From: Spirogloea muscicola
Lineage: Eukaryota; Streptophyta; Zygnematophyceae; Spirogloeales; Spirogloeaceae
Direction: 5' to 3'
Assembly: GCA_009602725.1 (NCBI GenBank)
Contig: WELB01000052.1
Span: forward strand, 372,476 to 397,037
DNA: 24,562 nt
Shown here: positions 1,753-24,380 of the stretch, in pieces
How the letters are laid out: the number at the start of each line of letters is the position of its first letter
Position numbering within the stretch: the stretch's first letter is position 1
The notes under the pieces: model-generated
What the model saw: only the letters and a program-made list of their open reading frames with translations
The model's database searches: none
What the model was told of the DNA's origin: nothing
Program-made: the position numbers and the translations under genes

Positions 1753-4700
1753 CTAATGTAGGGCAAGAAGCTCCACAGTGTAACCATCCTGAAAGCTCCC
1801 GCCAACTGCATTGTGGCTATTTCCTTGTTGATGTTGCTGGTCCCGCATGTGGGCAACGGCCCCAGCCAGTGGTGCTAAGCGACTAGTGAGAGCCACCTGA
1901 CATGCCACTAGCTGCTGGAGCCGCAGGAGGTGTGGCAGGCTGGCCCGCGCAAGCACCAGCTGTGCAAAGTGCGCATCTAAGATGGTGCTAGTCCATGCGA
2001 GGACCTGCGACAAGTGCAGTGCTCAAATGCAAGTGAGCGCGACTGAGCACTGGCAACACTTAAATGCCGGTCAGGCGGGCAACAATACAAAGCTTCGTGA
2101 CCTTAGTGCCTGGCGTTTGGGCAGTTCCCTTACCTGACTCAGCGACGGGACAGGAAAGCCTGGTTGTGACGTTGTGGGGCCTCGCAGTGCAGAACTCTGC
2201 AGCGGGCCACCAAAGAGCTCCACCCACTTGCAGAGGTAAGCCACCATCGCAGAAAGCTGGCCAGCGTCCAGCTTGGTGACAGCCGCCGACAGCACAGCCT
2301 CGTCGATATGCGGCGCTGCCACCACGGCATGTAAACAGAGCTCCTGCGGCGAGAACCCCTCCAGCGCTGCCACGGCCATGACAGCCTCTCGAGCAATGCG
2401 CGGCAGGCGGTCGCCAGCCACGTATACACCACCACCCCGTGCCTGCATGTGCACCGCAGCCTTGGCAACCACAGCCGCCGCCAGCCGCTGCCGACTGCGG
2501 ACCAGAGGCACTAGACGCTCGCCTGCAATTTCCTCCTCATTGATCAGCACAAATTTGAGGAAATGGACGAGGTCAGAGGGCGGCAGGTCCGGCATGGCCG
2601 CAAAGCAGCGCTCCAACAGCAGCACATGGCGCTGCTCCACCAGCGCAGCAATCAGGCCTGGGTGCACGGCGGCAGTGACAGCGCCAACTTCCAACAGGCA
2701 GCGTAGTGGGGCCCAGTGCGCCGAAGTGAAGCACCACCGCACGACTGCTGACACTAGCGCCGGCGAGAGGGACGCTGCAGCTCTCCGCCACCTCTTTTGC
2801 TGTCGGCTTTCCTTCTTGACTGCACTGCTTCGATTGTCACCAGAGCCGTTATCAGCATCAGGCCGCAGCCCATCTCCCCCAAGTGTGTCACCAACTTTGG
2901 TGGCTACGCCCTCCTCCACATCAGCTTCGTTGGCCCCATTCCCATCCCTCGATTGCCTGCCGGCCGCGCCATCATTGCAGGCCAGCCTGCAGACTTGGAA
3001 GTAACGCTCAAAGATACTGTAAAACTCATCCACGCCTACAGCCCCCGGTCCGCTCTTAAGCAGGTTGGTGATGAGCCCCCGCTCCGCTGCTTCCGCACCC
3101 TCCAGGTGCTCCGCGTCCCACGCCAGGCCCTTCCGCCGGCGCACAAAACCGCTCCCATTGACAAGGTCGAGCTCCTCCACTCCAGCCTCATGCCCCCTCC
3201 CTCTGCCGCCTCCCTCCTTGTCCTCCTCTCCTTGGTGCTCCACACGGGGCGATGCCACAGACACCAGCGGAGGTCTCGCTAGCGCAGCCAGCTGCTCTGT
3301 CCCCAAAACCTGCATGCCTGCCCTCGCAGCTCGGCCAGCCACGCATGGCCACCCGGCGCGGTCCACGCCAGATCCGGAGAGGGCGCCAACCACGCTGGCA
3401 AGTGAGAGCGGCTCGGTGGCAATTGTAATGGCCACCACACTGAAGATAGTGCTGACAAGCAACACATTGCTGACTGCCCACTCCATGGAAACCAGTCCGT
3501 CGCCAGGCGACAGAATGTCATTGGCATCCTCGCCAAGTCCAAGGTCGTGGATGGCATGCACGCAGCCATAGAGGGCGTCAAGCAAGGCCAGCGCCAGATG
3601 ACTACGGCCACCTTCTGTCCGCTCCCTCCGGCGGCCCACAACCACCAAGTACCGGCTGCCTGGGAGGAACTGCATCGTGGCGGGCCGCATGAGAGGTGGC
3701 AGTGGCGCAGTAGCTGCCCCTCCTTTCCGCGGCGTTGCAGCACCATTTTCACGCCTCTTCCTCGACGCAGTCGGCGTAGCAGAATGACCTGCAATGTCCA
3801 CTTGGCTTGCAAGATCCAAGTGCTGAAGCTTCCGCTGCAGAACCTGCCGCTGCCTCTCGCCAGGCAGGGCGCCGGCTCCTGTGGCGAGGAGCCGCCGATG
3901 CAACTCCCAGGTGCCATCAGACCAGAGGATCTGCGCAGCAATGGGCAGGGCTGAGAAGCCTGCTCTCAAGGATGCCCTCTGCGAGCACTCACAGATGCGT
4001 GGCAAGGCTGATGGATTATACAAAGCGGCGACCAATCTTGAGATGGTGACCCACTGTGACAAAAGTGCCGGAGGAGCTTACCGCAGCATCGCCATCCTGG
4101 CCGCAGGCCGCAGCCACCACCCGGCAGCTCGGCCCAGGGGCCACGAGCTCAGCACTGAGCACCAACTCGAGAAAGGCACCCTTGTCGCCGCCGTCTGCGT
4201 CCTCGTCTCGGCCTTGGCCAACTCGGACCACCGACAGCCGCCAATCCTTGCCGCGTCGGCCGGCCGTCGCCAGCGTCACTGTGCCCCTCGGCACGGGCGG
4301 GACATCGACGAGCAGCACGTCTCGCTCCGCTGGCGCAGGCAGGCTCGCGAGGCAGTCGCCGAGCTCGGGTCCGTAGAGCACGAGCTGCCCTGACTTGAGC
4401 AGAGCCAACACGCCGCCGCCGCCGTCGACCCCAACGTGGCCTTCGTCCTGCATACCGGACCCCACCGCCGGGGCAGGCTCGGGCAGGAGCCGGGACAGCG
4501 GGACGAGGAGGGTCGCGGGCGAGGCCAGCGGCGCCCGGCGCAAGGAGGAGACGCCCGCCAGAGGCGGCACGGGCCCAAGAGCAGCGCCGTCGGAAGGGGC
4601 GGCGGGCTCGTCCTGCCAGGAGACGAACTCGGCGGCGACGGCGGCGCCGCCGCCGGAGGCCCGCTCCACGGCGGCGTACAGGCGCCGCGACAGCCCGTCC

Positions 4701-4994: not shown

Positions 4995-5028
4995 GGTCGG
5001 GCTTATTTAACGCCGCCCAAGAGTGTGG

Positions 5029-5056
5029 TTTAGGGTTTGGGGTTCGGGGTTTAGGA
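5029..5056 (+). promoter_or_regulatory. Four telomere-like heptamers / telo-box upstream of NOL11
   Basis: Four consecutive 7-mers in register read TTTAGGG, TTTGGGG, TTCGGGG and TTTAGGA. On the minus strand, the NOL11 sense strand, this begins with AAACCCTAAA about 35 bp upstream of the probable ATG. In land plants the telo-box (AAACCCTA) is typical of promoters of ribosomal-protein and ribosome-biogenesis genes (established knowledge), which fits NOL11. The alternative is a short interstitial telomere insertion. A TTAAATAAG word lies between it and the ATG. Confidence 0.6.
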
Positions 5057-5059
5057 ATT

Positions 5060-5300
5060 TCGTGAAACAAACGAAGGCCAAATGGCCAAGTACAAAGGCA
5101 AGCACATCTAAGACCTACATAACATACAGCAGAATGACCCGCTCGGTAATCGCGGGTCAAAACATAAAGGTCGATAAGCGACCTTTATGCCTGAATTTTT
5201 GCCTGAATACTAGACGTCAGATAAGAAGCCCTTCTGCCACCAGCTAGAGCTCGCCCAGCTTTCTGGTGCAAGGGGTTTAGGGAGGTTTTGAGGCAACACG
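5060..5300 (+). repeat. Dispersed family copy A (5' end with two hairpins)
   Basis: The shared flank CAAGCACATCT is followed by the signature TGACCCGCTCGGTA at 5135. The signature forms an inverted repeat (TGACCCGC 5135-5142 with GCGGGTCA 5152-5159). A second, perfect 11-bp inverted repeat follows (5163-5173 with 5179-5189, 5-nt loop). The ATG at 5187 opens MPEFLPEY and then a stop. Further on, the words AAGCCCTTCTGCCACCA and AGAGCTCGCCCAG match copy B. The reading frame is broken, so this is a relic. Confidence 0.75.
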
Positions 5301-5439
5301 ATGTGGGCCTGTCGCGACGCACGAGTGCCAGATGAAGCGGCGAATTTAGTGAGTTCCGTGGTTGGCGTCCCCACTCAGGTTAGCGTTCGATTGTTTCTAG
5401 AATACACGTATTCTTCCACTCACCACGAACAAGAAGAGG

Positions 5440-5738
5440 AGGAAGAAGTGGCACTCCCAATGGGGGCAAGGGCTGCAAAAAGCCAGCCCAAAAAAGAATT
5501 GACAAAAGGTTCGAAGGGGCCGAAAAAGCATTGAGCAGCTACAAAGGGGTCGGAAGATGCTACGGTAGAGCAGGGGGAGGATGGATCACTCAGTAGTTAC
5601 GAGTGAGGAGCCTCAGATCCGACAGACTAGCTGCCGGAATACTATCCCCCTGACGAGAGCCAGAGGCCGCAGCGAGAGCACGGCCAGCACGCAGATGCAG
5701 AGCGTGGGCCATGGACCGCTGAAGGGATACAGACAGTC
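5440..5738 (+). repeat. Dispersed repeat module, degenerate
   Basis: CCAATGGGGGCAAGGGCTG and AAAGCCAGCCCA correspond to the module at 680-720. Around 5600-5700, CAGATCCGACAGACTAGCTG and GGCCAGCACGC resemble the parts at about 10030-10100. No gene was recognised. The window's other copies of these words suggest several nested insertions. Confidence 0.5.
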
Positions 5739-7155
5739 TCATACGGTAGACCTGGGCCCAGGAGCCAGGGGCGTTGAAGTCAGCCGGTTGAAGTCAGCCA
5801 GCTCGCCGCGCCTGCGGGACACAGCCCGCCGCGCAAGCCTGGCCAGCAGGTCAAGCCACTGGGACCCGAGAGCCCCGTGTAAGTCCACAGCCAAGGGGAC
5901 GAAATCATCAGCAGGTGGGTGGTCGGAGTGCTTGGCCGCCTTGCTGCGAGCGGCCTTCGTGGCCGCGTGGCCAGCCCGCGAGGCAGAGAGCCCCGGGTTG
6001 GAGCGGTCGACCACATCGGTGGTGACCACGTCGGCGATGATGCGCGCGGCACCGCCCGGCGTGGACGCCACCAGGTCGACACGGCGCGTATGGGGTCCGT
6101 CAGCCCTCTGGAGGATGTGCATAACAGATGTGTTCTCCATTGCGTACAGCGGCTCACGATCTTCTGCGTGATGCCATGTTCGGCATCTTCCAGGAGGCCG
6201 GCTACACGCAGAAGATCGTGAGCCGCTGTACGTTCACCTCCAGTGGCGCAGCGGAGGATGTGCGCCGCCAGCTCCGCCGCGTCCGCCGACCGCTCCCCAC
6301 CCTCGCACTGCAGCACGCCCAGCAGGCAGGGCGGGGGGAGGCCCAGCAGGCGATGGGTGGCTGTGCGGAGCAGCTCATCAGGCAGCCGGAGGGCATCATA
6401 CAACGGAAGCGCGGAGAGCCAGGCTGCCGCGCCGGGGGAGGCAGCCGATAGCAGCCGCGCACGGCCGCGCACGTCGCTGGCCGGGAGGAGCTGCAGCGAG
6501 GCCGTGAACGACGCCGTGTCGACGGCCGCCATGTAGCGCGCCTGCGCCTGCGAGTCGGTGGTGTGGGCAAGGTGGGCAAACTGGACCACGCTCTCTGCAA
6601 GGGCAGGGTGCTCCGCAAGTAACCCGTCTTGGGCTGAGCGGAGCGCCTCCTGAAAGGGCAACGAGCCGGTCGCCACCTCCTCCACAACCTGCTGCAACAG
6701 GGGCCGCCCATCATGGAGGAAGCGCTGCGCCACTGATTTGGCGAGACCTGGGCCCAGCTGCCGAGGAATGCTGGCCTGGAGACGCGCGCGAGCGAGCGGC
6801 AGCCGAGGCCGCCCTGGCCAGGGGGCAGAGTGGCCTGGAGCGTCGCAGCTTGCGAGTCGAGGAAGCCAGGGTGGCGGATGAGGGCCGCCACGCCCTCCGT
6901 GACTCCCGCGTCGAACGTGGTGTAGGCATCCAGCACCTCGGGGCAGGGGGGGGTCGTCCGCGCCAGGTAGTGGGGACGCTGCACAACGCATCTGGTGAGC
7001 ATGGCAAGCGCCAGCTGCATGTCCTGCAGCTCGGGGAGGCGGGCCACCGGCTGGAGGTGCTCCTGGAGGCGGACGCGCAGGTGCCCGTCGACGAACGCCG
7101 GCGTGCTGAACGGGACCCCTAGGATGGTGAGGCCACTTGGGGGAACAACGAACAA
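5739..7155 (-). pseudogene. 5'-truncated, frameshifted LINE-type retrotransposon ORF (RT C-terminal part, zinc knuckle, endonuclease-like domain)
   Basis: The minus strand reads through three successive frames that together resemble the C-terminal part of algal/oomycete LINE polyproteins. The first frame (7155 to about 6770) has GLTILGVPFSTPAFV, then GQGGLGCRSLARVS and AFLGSWA. The second (to about 6205) has SLQLLPASDVRGRARLL and GAAAWLSALPLYDALRLP, then a Cys/His knuckle with CLLGVLQC, HILRC and GGERTAAHDLLR. The third (6140 to 5739) has RVDLVASTPGGAARIIADVV and FVPLAVDLHGALG, which resembles a C-terminal restriction-like endonuclease domain (inference). The catalytic palm of the reverse transcriptase is absent, consistent with 5' truncation on insertion. 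At least two frame changes and an inverted segment (6143-6232) show that it is dead. A 13-bp duplication (GTTGAAGTCAGCC) lies near its 3' end. Confidence 0.75.
6143..6232. repeat. Perfect 28-bp inverted repeat with inverted 34-nt loop inside the LINE
   Basis: The arms 6143-6170 and 6205-6232 are exact reverse complements and flank a 34-nt loop. Read on plus, arm plus loop encode RTAAHDLLRD followed by AMFGIFQEAGY, the expected continuation of the LINE motif GGERTAAHDLLR. The element itself runs on minus, so this piece is an inverted duplicate of neighbouring sequence replacing the original. A smaller stem (GATGCC with GGCATC) lies at the loop edge. Confidence 0.85.
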
Positions 7156-7184
7156 GGGCTAATTCACACAACAAGGGAGACGAC

Positions 7185-7344
7185 AGAAGGGCGCGCGGTG
7201 CGCTGGAAATGTAAGATGGAGGCCAATTCAAGCCAATACATGGTTCAGAGTCTAGTGCATATCAAACAAGGCTACATGTACTGGAGTCCTGTACTAAGGA
7301 AAGGAAGTGCTCGCCTGTACTAAGGTACCCAAGGTAATAGAAAA
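7185..7344 (+). repeat. Dispersed repeat internal module
   Basis: It contains GGGCGCGCGGTGCGC, then GAGGCCAATTCAAGCCAATA and GGCTACATGTACTGG with a CTGTACTAAGG tail, closely matching positions 1-140. The copy lies just outside the truncated 5' edge of the LINE, which suggests that the LINE landed in or beside it. Confidence 0.7.
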
Positions 7345-7815
7345 ACAAAAACTAAAGCAAGCACATCTGAAAATTTGCAGCACCTACAGCAAATTGACCC
7401 GCTCAGTAATCACGGGTCAATACATAAAGGTCGTAATCGATGCCTGAATACGAGATGGCAGATACGAAGCCCTTCTGCCACCAACTAGAGCTCGCCCAGC
7501 CTTCTGGGCATCAGCCTGGGCGGCACGCTGCAAACAGGCCGAAATTCGTCGTCGCAAGAATGAGAGATATGCAGCTGGCAAGCCCATCTCAGCCGGAAAC
7601 ACATCTGCATGTCGTGCATAGCCTAGATTGGCAATACTCTGAAGGAGAGTGTGAAAACGACGACCTAAACAGCCAAAGATGTCGACTGCAGCTGGCAGGA
7701 GCTGATCGCATTTGGGGGTAATCGACGTAGTGCTGCAGCTTTCTTTGTTCTGCACTGCCCACTGCGTGGCCAGCGATGTGCGTAGATGCTGGACCTAAGC
7801 CTCCGTAACAACAAC
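7345..7815 (+). repeat. Dispersed family copy B with remnant reading frame
   Basis: It starts in AAGCAAGCACATCT. The signature TGACCCGCTCAGTA at 7395 pairs with CGGGTCA at 7413-7419. The ATG at 7440 opens MPEYEMADTKPFCHQLELAQ, and the frame runs to about 7721. The later sequence (CTGCAGCTTTCTTTGTTCTG and CACTGCCCACTG) matches copy C read on minus. The product matches no family I recognise. Similarity to copy C ends near 7815. Confidence 0.75.
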
Positions 7816-7824
7816 CAGGCCAGG

Positions 7825-9087
7825 GGACCCGCTACCAGGTGACCAGTTTTCCTACCTGCGGCTGCTTTGACAGGGAATACTAAGTGTTTCGTAGCTACTT
7901 GATTCCCTGTGTGCTTTAGCACATTCCCTGGCCCCTTCGAACTTTGTACATCTTTCATCTGGGCTGGCCTCTCCCAGCCACTGCCTTCTCCTGGAAGCGT
8001 CTCTGGAGCTGCTAGAGGAGTGGAAGAGAAGAGAAACAGCTCTCCCAAAGTAAGGCAATGGCTGTGAGCGGCCAGCCCAGAGGAATGTTCACAGCCCAAA
8101 GGGCCGAAAGGCGCCACTGAACAAGAGCTCTCTCCTCCTCCACCTGCCTGATCGGAGTCCGTCATTCTGGCTTTCGTGGCAGCGCTCCAGCTGCCCAAGT
8201 TAGCTTGTCAGATTTGTTTGTGCTCACCCGTGGGTATTGATGTCACCTTAGGCACCTTACTTTAGGTATATTTAGCCTTGTTTAGTCTGCAGTAGCCTTC
8301 GCCTGAACAATGTACTGGCTTGAATTGGCCTCCCTTTCATTTCATGCGCCCCGCGCGCCTTCTCTCTCTGAGTGGCGGCTATCGCGTGGATGGCGGTCAC
8401 CTCCCTACGCACATGTTGCAATGCCCCACAGGACCTGAAGTGGTGGCCGTTCACAATCTCTTCCAGGATTCCCTGGCGGACTTGATGAGTGACGCCAGCT
8501 ACCACGCTGTAGTGGAGGTAAACAACATCATCTTCATCTCCACGAAAGTCCAGGGATGCCAACACCGTCGCACCCTAGACATCGTTGGTGTACAACGTTC
8601 TGGAGAGTCCACGAGCCTTGGTTGTGACGGAGATGTGGTTGTGACGGAGGCGTAAAAGTATTCAGCATGGACCACATTGCTGGCCATACAGTGGGGAGTG
8701 CAGAGCAGAGAAAGCTGCCGCACTTTCTGACTACCCCCGCATCCATCACTTACTACTGGCCGTAATTGACATCTTAGGCTGCATGGGTCCTCGCTTTTGT
8801 ACCCTACTTGAGAACACTGCAAGTCACTGATATGCACGATGTGGAGGATGTGCTTCCAGCTGAGATGGGCATTCCGGCAGCAGATTTGACGTTTTTGCGC
8901 ATCGTATGCCAGCCTGTTTGCAGCGAGCTGAGGCTCATGCTTTGAACCAGAAAGCTGGTCAAACTTTAGCTGGTGATAGAAGGGCATGTCAACTGCCGTC
9001 CGCTGATCGGGCATCAATCATCGACCTGAACGTGCTGACTCGTGACTACTGAGCGGGTCAGCTTAGCAGAAGATGACCCGCTCAGTA
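7825..9087 (-). mobile_element. Dispersed family copy C, the longest copy; unrecognised mobile element
   Basis: Read on minus, the signature TGACCCGCTCAGTA starts at 9060 and an ATG follows at 9014. The ATG opens MPDQRTAVDMPFYHQLKFDQ and the frame runs to 8499 (about 172 codons). A second frame (8565-8272) contains VVYLHYSVVAGVTHQVRQG, then ILEEIVNGHHF and REKARGAHEMKGRPIQAS. The nucleotides of that last part are the module seen at positions 1-60. The rest, to about 7825, carries the GGCTGGCCGCTCACAGCC module and CAAGCTAACTTGGG. I see no transposase, reverse transcriptase or other known catalytic motif, so it could be a non-autonomous or decayed element. Both boundaries are approximate. Confidence 0.6.
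9047..9087. repeat. Head-to-head palindrome of the family signature (14-bp arms)
   Basis: The arm 9047-9060 (TACTGAGCGGGTCA) and the arm 9074-9087 (TGACCCGCTCAGTA) are perfect inverses separated by 13 nt. The left arm begins copy C on minus; the right arm starts a plus-oriented piece that does not continue into the MPEY-like frame. Confidence 0.9.
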
Positions 9088-9159
9088 CACATATTAGTGT
9101 GTTTGCCTTTGTACTTGTCACTCAGGCCCTACATTACTCAAATCACGCTCCAAGTCCTT

Positions 9160-10290
9160 TGACAGGCGCGGTCGCTGTGAAAGGCCAGGAGGTGTGCGGT
9201 GCGCTTGGAATGAAGGTGAAGCCAAGCCGAGCCAATAAACTGTTCATGCAAAAAGCTAAGGGAACTGCAGAGGATGGGACAATTCAACGCAAAAGCCTAA
9301 GGCTTTCGTGCTGTAACCCGCCGTCATGGATAGCAGAGCGAGCAGCGCAACTATAATGTCGTCGGGTCGCCCACTCAGGTGTGCAAACTGCGCCTTGCCA
9401 TACCTTTGCAGCGTACCTTGGCCTTTGCGGCACCTTGGTTGCTGCCTCCAGGTCTCAATAGGGCCGCCTTCTATTTACCACGATCTGCAGTGTTTGTCTG
9501 GAGGGTCTTGAGCGTCCTTTTGCAGAGGTCGGACATTAGTTTCTGATAAGTTTCTGCGCCTTCCAGCCCTTTCGGTCCTTGTCCACCTCTAAAATTGGCC
9601 CCTCACAGCCACGCCTTTCCTTGCAAGAGCTATGTTTGTGTCTTTCTTTATGAAGGCCCAGGAGGGGCTGCTATGGAAGGAGGGCAAGGCTGAAGCGGAT
9701 ACAAGTAATCACGAGCACAGGGTAACACAAGAGCCCGGAGCCACAGGCTAACTTGGGAGCCTGGAGCACCGCGCAATAAGTGGTGGCCTGGCTTAGGGCG
9801 CGCCCAGCACGATAATGAAGGGCCAGGGCCTGCGAGCTCTGAGAAAGATGGAGCACTGTGCATAACTGACAAGGAGGCCAGACCAAGCCGAAGCCAATGC
9901 AGTGTTCAAAATGCTAGTGCAAAACTTGGGGCTATACAAAGCGAAGCCTTATACTAAGGGGGACTATGGGGACTGTGCTGAAGCCGGCTGAAGGGCTTCT
10001 AGTACTTACGAGTGAGCTCATAAACATCCGACAGGCTAACTTGGGAAGCTGGAGAACAGCCACGGAAGCCAGGGGCCTGGCTTACTGTGCGCCAGCACGC
10101 TGATGGACAGCCAAAGCATAGGAGCTCTGCAAACTTAGCGAATGCCAGATACTGTGACATACAACCTACAAATGCGGAGTGCTAGTATGCCTCAAGCTGC
10201 CCACCTGACTATGACGACCCGCAAAAAGAGGAGTGTGAGCTCCTCCAAAGGGGGGCGATGCTGTGAAAGGCCATGGATAGTACGAACGGG
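9160..10290 (+). repeat. Nested dispersed-repeat fragments
   Basis: Several partial copies sit in tandem: GCTGTGAAAGGCCAGG with GTGCGGTGCGCTTGGAATG (about 9165-9250), GGCTAACTTGGGAGCCTGG (about 9745), AAGCCGAAGCCAATGCAGTG (about 9885), GACAGGCTAACTTGGGAAGC (about 10030) and AAAGGGGGGCGATGCTGTGA (about 10240). Words from 9745-9830 and 10035-10110 align in order, indicating a diverged duplication of about 290 bp. No coding frame is credible. Confidence 0.6.
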
Positions 10291-23753: not shown

Positions 23754-24174
23754 CTAGCAAGGAAGTAGTTGACAAGAAGCAGCTAAACACCTGTCAGCAC
23801 TATGCTAAGCTTGCATGGCCAGGGGTTATGAGACTGTCAATGCTTTCTTGGAGTGATGAAGAAACATGAGGTAAAGAAAGAGCTTGTCACAAGGAACACG
23901 GGCATGGTTTGACAACATTCACATACGATTCTAAGCACCAGATCAGAGTGCTATGTTGGTAGTATACAGAGAAGGTGGCGCACTAACTGCCAGAATAGCT
24001 GCCAGATGGAAGCTCGCTTACATATAAGGGAGAAAGCAAGGTGGCGTGCACAGGGCAGGAGGTCAACCAGATATTGAAGCCTGCTGGTGCATTGGAACGG
24101 AGCGTGTATTGAAAATAGAGGGCCTGAGTGGGTAATCACATAGGCAAGCATATCAACAGATGCACATCACCTGC
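23754..24174. other. No gene seen
   Basis: I see only short frames on both strands and no recognisable motif. The sequence immediately precedes family copy D. Confidence 0.45.
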
Positions 24175-24380
24175 TGCTAAGCTGACCCGCTCGGTAACCA
24201 TGAGTTAGCACGTAGAGGACGCTAAGTGATGCCCGAATATCGAACAGCAATTGACAAGCCAAATCTGCCATTTGAGGCCACCGCTGGCTCTACCATCAGA
24301 CAAGGGATGTGGCTCCCTCAGTGTCCTCAAGCCAAGTACGGAAACATCACAATTCATCATAATGTACCGCCAGGCAGCAT
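24175..24380 (+). repeat. Dispersed family copy D (5' part)
   Basis: CTGCTAAGC leads into the signature TGACCCGCTCGGTA at 24183, and an ATG at 24229 opens MPEYRTAIDKPNLPFEA. The spacing from signature to ATG (46 nt) equals that of copy C. Similarity to the other copies fades within about 60 bases after the ATG. This copy lies about 15 kb from the main cluster, so the family is truly dispersed. Confidence 0.65.

Follow-up and report, generated by a model that had tools for sequence, protein, structure and literature searches.

A dispersed 14-nucleotide signature in the green alga Spirogloea muscicola probably marks the 3' end of an R2-like LINE

Among the long interspersed nuclear elements (LINEs), or non-long-terminal-repeat (non-LTR) retrotransposons, R2 inserts into one site of the 28S ribosomal DNA (rDNA), and Dualen/RandI elements are present in Chlamydomonas. 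According to the available part of PMC4640811, Dualen/RandI carry both the restriction-like and the apurinic endonuclease; the same part describes LINEs with a restriction-like endonuclease as mostly target-specific, the HERO clade having many non-specific members. Non-site-specific R2-like elements of 3.2-3.7 kb, with 3-6 copies each, are known from the German cockroach as BLAG, as told in the portion of PMC7650587 at hand. The locus considered here is a stretch of 24,562 nucleotides of Spirogloea muscicola (contig WELB01000052.1, positions 372,476 to 397,037, forward strand; hereafter the window), in which an initial annotation had noticed a repeated 14-nucleotide signature, TGACCCGCTCRGTA, followed at a short distance by an ATG, and had proposed a mobile element with its own gene. 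The signature is very probably the 3' end of the single open reading frame (ORF) of an R2-like LINE, read on the antisense strand, and the candidate for something undescribed becomes an ordinary LINE.

The signature and the gene that it ends

Exact matches to the signature lie at 5135-5148(+), 7395-7408(+), 9047-9060(-) and 24183-24196(+) of the window, the four places from which copies A, B, C and D had been described, and a fifth, extra to these four, at 9074-9087(+). Base composition alone would give about 0.0004 exact matches on both strands of the window, and a chance origin of these matches is excluded. With up to three mismatches allowed, the window holds seven matches compared to a shuffled mean of 3.1, and 4 of 100 shuffles reach seven; the loose matches are so near the shuffled level that only the exact ones are informative. 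In the whole assembly (153,112,186 bases in 471 contigs) the signature occurs exactly 2,335 times (1,184 and 1,151 by strand), whereas the control, the pattern read backwards, occurs 0 times on either strand, in agreement with the earlier proposal of a dispersed mobile element.

The reverse complement of the signature, TAC TGA GCG GGT CA, consists of the final tyrosine codon and the TGA stop of a LINE reverse transcriptase ORF, whose C-terminus reads ...LYVLTRGY* at this point. Longer copies carry this ORF on the strand opposite to the signature; in the loci L021 and L022 a TGA comes after its end, ...RASVSDLYVLTRGY, and L023 and L024 show small changes at the ORF end compared with these two. 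With copy C as query, blastn on the assembly scored 40 of 2,101 first-look candidates and produced 46 matches, and a search with part of the reverse transcriptase gave 143 (142 of 1,672 first-look candidates were scored); nine of the 143 matches listed possess an uninterrupted frame of exactly 1,267 amino acids, counted from stop to stop. Open frames run into the exact signature in L028, L030, L031 and L032, and L029 ends in RGY without the exact 14-mer. The ORF is also complete in L033 and L034, which are longer cuts around the intact copies L028 and L031 respectively.

The element measures about 3.97 kb. In 7 of the 10 copies compared the 5' end reaches about 46 bp further, to AACGGCTCCCC, and the 3' end is exactly ATACACGCATTT in 8 of the 10, one of the remaining two differing slightly and the other reading N. 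Two copies that differ in contig and in 3' flank share 99.975% identity over 3,927 bp, which suggests that the activity of the LINE is probably recent. A second family, L036 (1,350 amino acids), and a third, L038 (1,403 amino acids), share 77% and 42% identity, respectively, with the first. Additionally, two copies, one on contig C151 and one on C329 (L053 and L043), harbor near the 5' end an extra similar sequence (ATCAGCAGCCGCT...) without counterpart in the other compared copies, either a 5' variant or the product of a template switch.

The 1,267-residue frame matches the Pfam model RVT_1 (68.3 bits, E 1e-18, cut-off 29.6), so that the earlier remark of no known domain does not hold for the intact copies, which encode an R2-like reverse transcriptase; six ORFs of the window itself gave no Pfam match, presumably because the copies there are broken. 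The layout of the ORF comprises a putative N-terminal Cys/His finger, a reverse transcriptase with YADD, a linker of the Cys-Cys-His-Cys type and, in the C-terminal domain, the residues D...D...KXXXY. The finger is matched by zf-C2HC_2 (residues 244-267, E 4e-4, 20.5 bits, under the cut-off of 27) and its residues C247, C250, H262 and C266 are invariant among the ORFs of the three families. In NCBIfam, a group II reverse transcriptase/maturase model appears in all three ORFs, well under its cut-off. When a profile of these three ORFs was compared with the PDB, R2 sequences were the top three of the 12 matches listed (3.4e-11, 5.5e-11 and 2.3e-10), after which come a chain whose only name is RNA-directed DNA polymerase (2.5e-4) and chains named LINE-1 (4.7e-4). 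In the C-terminal domain D1113, D1128, K1155 and Y1159 are invariant in the three ORFs, the two aspartates with 14 residues between them and the lysine and tyrosine separated by three residues (KLRHY or KELKY). These residues fit the catalytic residues that the available part of PMC5678591 describes for the restriction-like endonuclease of LINEs, namely D...D and KX2KY with a less conserved second lysine. In L034:575-4552 (3,978 bases, one whole copy plus about 50 flanking bases) there are no inverted repeats and no terminal direct repeats of at least 25 nucleotides (nt), the direct repeat found being a single internal one of 28 nt. The element is probably an ordinary LINE of the R2-like kind with a restriction-like endonuclease, its reverse transcriptase being placed by the profile comparison; that it works like an R2-like LINE is held with more confidence than that it belongs to any given clade.

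Several results pull the other way. A PDB search with a single sequence, the whole ORF, gave reverse transcriptases of the group II intron/retron type (2.9e-4 to 5.3e-4) slightly above R2 (7.3e-4), and a 271-residue piece of the reverse transcriptase found no match below 0.7 in the PDB. For the C-terminal domain (270 residues), neither a profile search of the PDB nor Pfam gave a relevant match. The Cys-Cys-His-Cys residues of the linker are invariant, but their spacing is CX1CX11-12HX3C compared to the CX2-3CX7-8HX4C of published LINEs with a restriction-like endonuclease, and the GXW that these have after the fourth beta-strand was not seen, GCLG or GALG occupying its presumed place as judged by eye (linker and GXW as given in the part of PMC5678591 available). 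The deviating linker, along with dispersed insertion, would suit a LINE with an apurinic endonuclease of the L1, RTE or CR1 group; this is regarded as unlikely, since the Pfam matches of the 1,267-residue frame up to E 1 contain no apurinic endonuclease domain, the reverse transcriptase profile favors R2 over LINE-1, and the invariant KXXXY and two aspartates follow the linker.

Copy structure and insertion

The aligned copies end together near window position 9152, and on the other side they extend beyond what copy C retains. Truncation was followed in 20 loci (L001-L020) selected because they match copy C, in which some of the starts may be alignment limits. These loci contain 37 pieces matching the element, 30 of which reach its last 50 bases and start at many positions between 1764 and 3925 (26 inside the locus and four cut by the locus edge); the other seven stop short of the element end, being either additional pieces within a locus or situated at its edge. 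Variable 5' starts with a common 3' end are what target-primed reverse transcription would leave. In such a process the C-terminal restriction-like endonuclease would nick the target and the reverse transcriptase would copy the element RNA from its 3' end, a direction of copying that would leave many 5'-truncated copies; the signature would be abundant because each truncated copy retains the 3' end. Insertion is dispersed, as signatures are spread along contigs C1-C3 among the matches listed (about the first 100) and the nine readable 3' flanks of 10 copies all differ. With 2,335 signatures and differing flanks, the strict R2 pattern of site-specific insertion in 28S rDNA is not the one found.

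Two points limit this picture. The spread of 5' starts comes from a biased sample, the loci having been chosen for their match to copy C. No clear target-site duplications emerged: own flanks match over at least 6 nt in 3 of 10 copies, compared to 10 of 90 mismatched flank pairs, one copy having a match of 8 nt (an eleventh copy, whose 3' end reads N, was excluded).

The same pieces bear on a non-autonomous element, SINE-like (short interspersed nuclear element) or MITE-like (miniature inverted-repeat transposable element), that would have borrowed a LINE 3' tail. Pieces covering only the last 52-200 bases occur in L007, L011, L014, L016 and L020, and 5 of the 30 end-reaching pieces start at 3273-3303, as such an element might produce. 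On the other hand, the lengths of the pieces form a range that runs into the reverse transcriptase ORF, and the cluster at 3273-3303, situated just outside the query used to choose the loci, which ends at element position 3313, is probably an artefact of selection; a borrowed tail is thereby left with very little probability, on evidence from the 20 loci, the 2,335 sites not having been searched for a short class. A 3' tail common to L034 and L038, whose proteins share 42% identity, was considered as well and rejected: L038 ends at a stop of its own, about 30 nt before the L034-like tail starts. This tail is most likely a separate truncated insertion, its capture by L038 being the less likely alternative.

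Antisense frames, the stop-codon hairpin and the copies in the window

The ATG that follows the signature was found at the offsets already described (52, 45, 46 and 46 in copies A, B, C and D), and it opens the peptides already described. It is, however, no start codon behind a fixed leader but the antisense of GCA TCA (Ala-Ser), a codon pair 12-13 codons upstream of the stop, which explains why its spacing hardly varies and why the peptides are related, each being a single coding sequence read in antisense. The similarity that had suggested a coding-like frame does reflect coding sequence, the gene being on the opposite strand from the one read. The sense frames run for 1,267 (L034), 1,350 (L036) and 1,403 (L038) codons. 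Between L034 and L036, 549 of the 913 differences found over 1,244 codons are at third positions, and the ratio of nonsynonymous to synonymous substitution rates (dN/dS) is 0.15 for these codons as a whole and 0.058 for the final 270; the more distant family pairs give 0.29-0.36, with dS close to saturation. These comparisons indicate that the sense frames are under purifying selection and that the antisense frame is not kept. An undescribed element whose own gene would start at the conserved ATG of the antisense strand, for which the related peptides in copies B, C and D, a 172-codon antisense ORF in copy C and a 75-codon frame opened by an antisense ATG of L038 (an unrelated peptide) could be quoted, is highly improbable and was dropped, since the sense ORFs are intact, the changes between intact families fit sense codons, and neither ATG nor antisense frame is kept among the three families, with no ATG in the first 80 bases of intact L034, three in those of L036 that open 4, 14 and 21 codons, and a peptide in copy A that ends after 8 residues. 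Read in antisense, a conserved 3' end can mimic a leader and a gene.

The signature had also been called palindromic. The 14-mer by itself is not: within an inverted repeat that spans the stop codon, it covers most of one arm and some of the loop. In the RNA of the sense strand, GCUGACUCG-(11 nt including UGA)-CGGGUCAGC pairs as a hairpin of 9 pairs with the stop codon in the loop. In copy C the hairpin occupies 9034-9062(+), with arms at 9034-9042 and 9054-9062 and the TGA at 9050-9052. Pairs were counted over the 36 distinct of 39 aligned sequences, the row of the L034-like tail beside L038 included: 93.2% of cells pair, compared to 90.6% in shuffled and 15-41% in slid versions. Double changes that keep pairing were found in 12 cells (shuffled mean 4.9, with 0 of 500 shuffles as high) and fall in two pairs, C-G to U-A in nine sequences and G-C to A-U in three. 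Neither the count of pairs that show double changes nor that of pair types exceeds the shuffled level, which 430 and 412 of 500 shuffles, respectively, are enough to show by reaching the observed values. Moreover, and adverse to a conserved hairpin, the double changes track the subfamily split, the independent events may be few and the counts ignore relatedness. RNAalifold on the whole 3' end of 38 sequences gave only a weak structure of 6 pairs elsewhere (-3.53 kcal/mol); the stop-codon hairpin was named by hand after that run and then counted on a second alignment, that of the 39 sequences. A known RNA family was also sought, and Rfam gave no match in the window at gathering thresholds. As a conserved RNA structure the hairpin is suggestive only, and it may belong to the 3' RNA recognised by the reverse transcriptase, which gives a testable idea on template recognition by such enzymes. 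A bolder and rather doubtful proposal is that of a recently active, dispersed R2-like LINE lineage of the green lineage whose 3' recognition RNA starts inside the ORF, the hairpin of about 9 pairs enclosing the stop, in which termination and template recognition would rely on a few shared bases and might be mutually exclusive.

The copies of the window are all remnants. Copy A (5064-5273, minus strand) is an L036-like LINE 3' end with 78.7% identity to L036 over 211 blastn columns (5273-5064) and a protein match to amino acids 1295-1350 at 5334-5146; its stop codon is mutated (TAC CGA). Degenerate repeats at 5020-5060 that resemble TTTAGGG, the plant-type telomere repeat, adjoin its 3' end, far from a contig end. 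A frameshifted, L038-like fragment at 5593-7146 (minus strand) comprises the end of the reverse transcriptase, the linker and the C-terminal domain, with tblastn matches of the L038 ORF at amino acids 897-1031, 1031-1215, 1224-1342 and 1338-1403 in three frames and with 54-74% identity; it has its own degenerate stop near 5593. Copy B (7351-7839, minus strand), another L036-like 3' end, shows 84.2% identity over 476 columns (7815-7351) and a tblastn match to amino acids 1202-1339 with 66.9% identity; it reads TAC TGA at 7408-7403 and its sense frame is broken. Copy D (24096-24260, minus strand) is a short 3' end matched by L033 with 80.4% identity (24259-24118), by the L038 tail (24230-24096) and by nhmmer (24241-24102), and its stop is likewise mutated to TAC CGA.

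Copy C, a decayed L034-like 3' end in sense orientation, lies mainly at 8367-9152(+), where it matches L033 with 75.5% identity over 734 columns (8388-9117) and the protein at amino acids 1046-1141 and 1123-1267 (tblastn), its 3' limit being taken from the alignment of copies. Another repeat of about 200 bp that does not belong to the LINE, here called R, is inserted in it at 8170-8366 (minus strand), and a 5' remnant of the copy lies beyond, at 8142-8169(+), its left edge set by eye. The insertion is seen from L002, a site without R that matches positions 1-1134 and 1332-1700 of the query and not 1135-1331. The LINE-derived part of copy C amounts to about 0.8 kb, and the 1.2 kb of the initial annotation is an overestimate. 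L002 represents the empty site of R, with a possible 4-nt duplication, TCTG; further copies of R, a dispersed repeat and possibly a SINE, are found at 1-72, 7182-7259 and 9187-9254 of the window. In sense, the signature of copy C (exact match, 9047-9060(+)) reads as the last tyrosine and stop of the ORF. The second, inverted signature at 9074-9087(+) arises from a 7-nt insertion in the 3' untranslated region, found in copy C and, with one base different, in L002, and in none of the other 36 aligned rows; it looks like a templated local inversion.

Comparison with described LINEs

No R2-like LINE of a green alga was described in the titles and abstract starts listed by the searches, which cover open-licence literature only and are weak evidence of absence. 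Like R2 (PDB 9nl2, 9nl3 and 9dou), the algal LINE has a single ORF with an N-terminal Cys/His finger, putative in the alga, a central reverse transcriptase and a C-terminal Cys-Cys-His-Cys and endonuclease-like region; it leaves 5'-truncated copies, and R2 is the best profile match of its reverse transcriptase. Unlike R2 and its one 28S rDNA site, it is dispersed with differing flanks, and it differs from R2 as well in the spacing of the linker and in the GXW. With BLAG, as far as the available part of its source describes it, the algal LINE shares an R2-like ORF, non-site-specific insertion and a similar size, whereas the host is an alga instead of an animal and the exact 3' signatures are counted in thousands. 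In keeping with an algal host, the assembly gave 68 matches to chlorophyll a/b-binding proteins, one of which matched PDB chains named chlorophyll a-b binding or LHCI proteins; the RuBisCO large chain gave no match. It resembles HERO in its non-specific insertion and probably in belonging to the same endonuclease group, a likeness taken from its description (in the part of PMC4640811 available). Like Dualen/RandI of Chlamydomonas, the present element is a LINE of a green alga with a restriction-like endonuclease, putative in its case. Dualen/RandI differ in carrying both endonucleases (same part of that source), no apurinic endonuclease domain being among the Pfam matches here. Since most LINEs with a restriction-like endonuclease are target-specific by that partial account, a dispersed algal family with so many exact 3' signatures and with near-identical intact copies is a useful addition to them.

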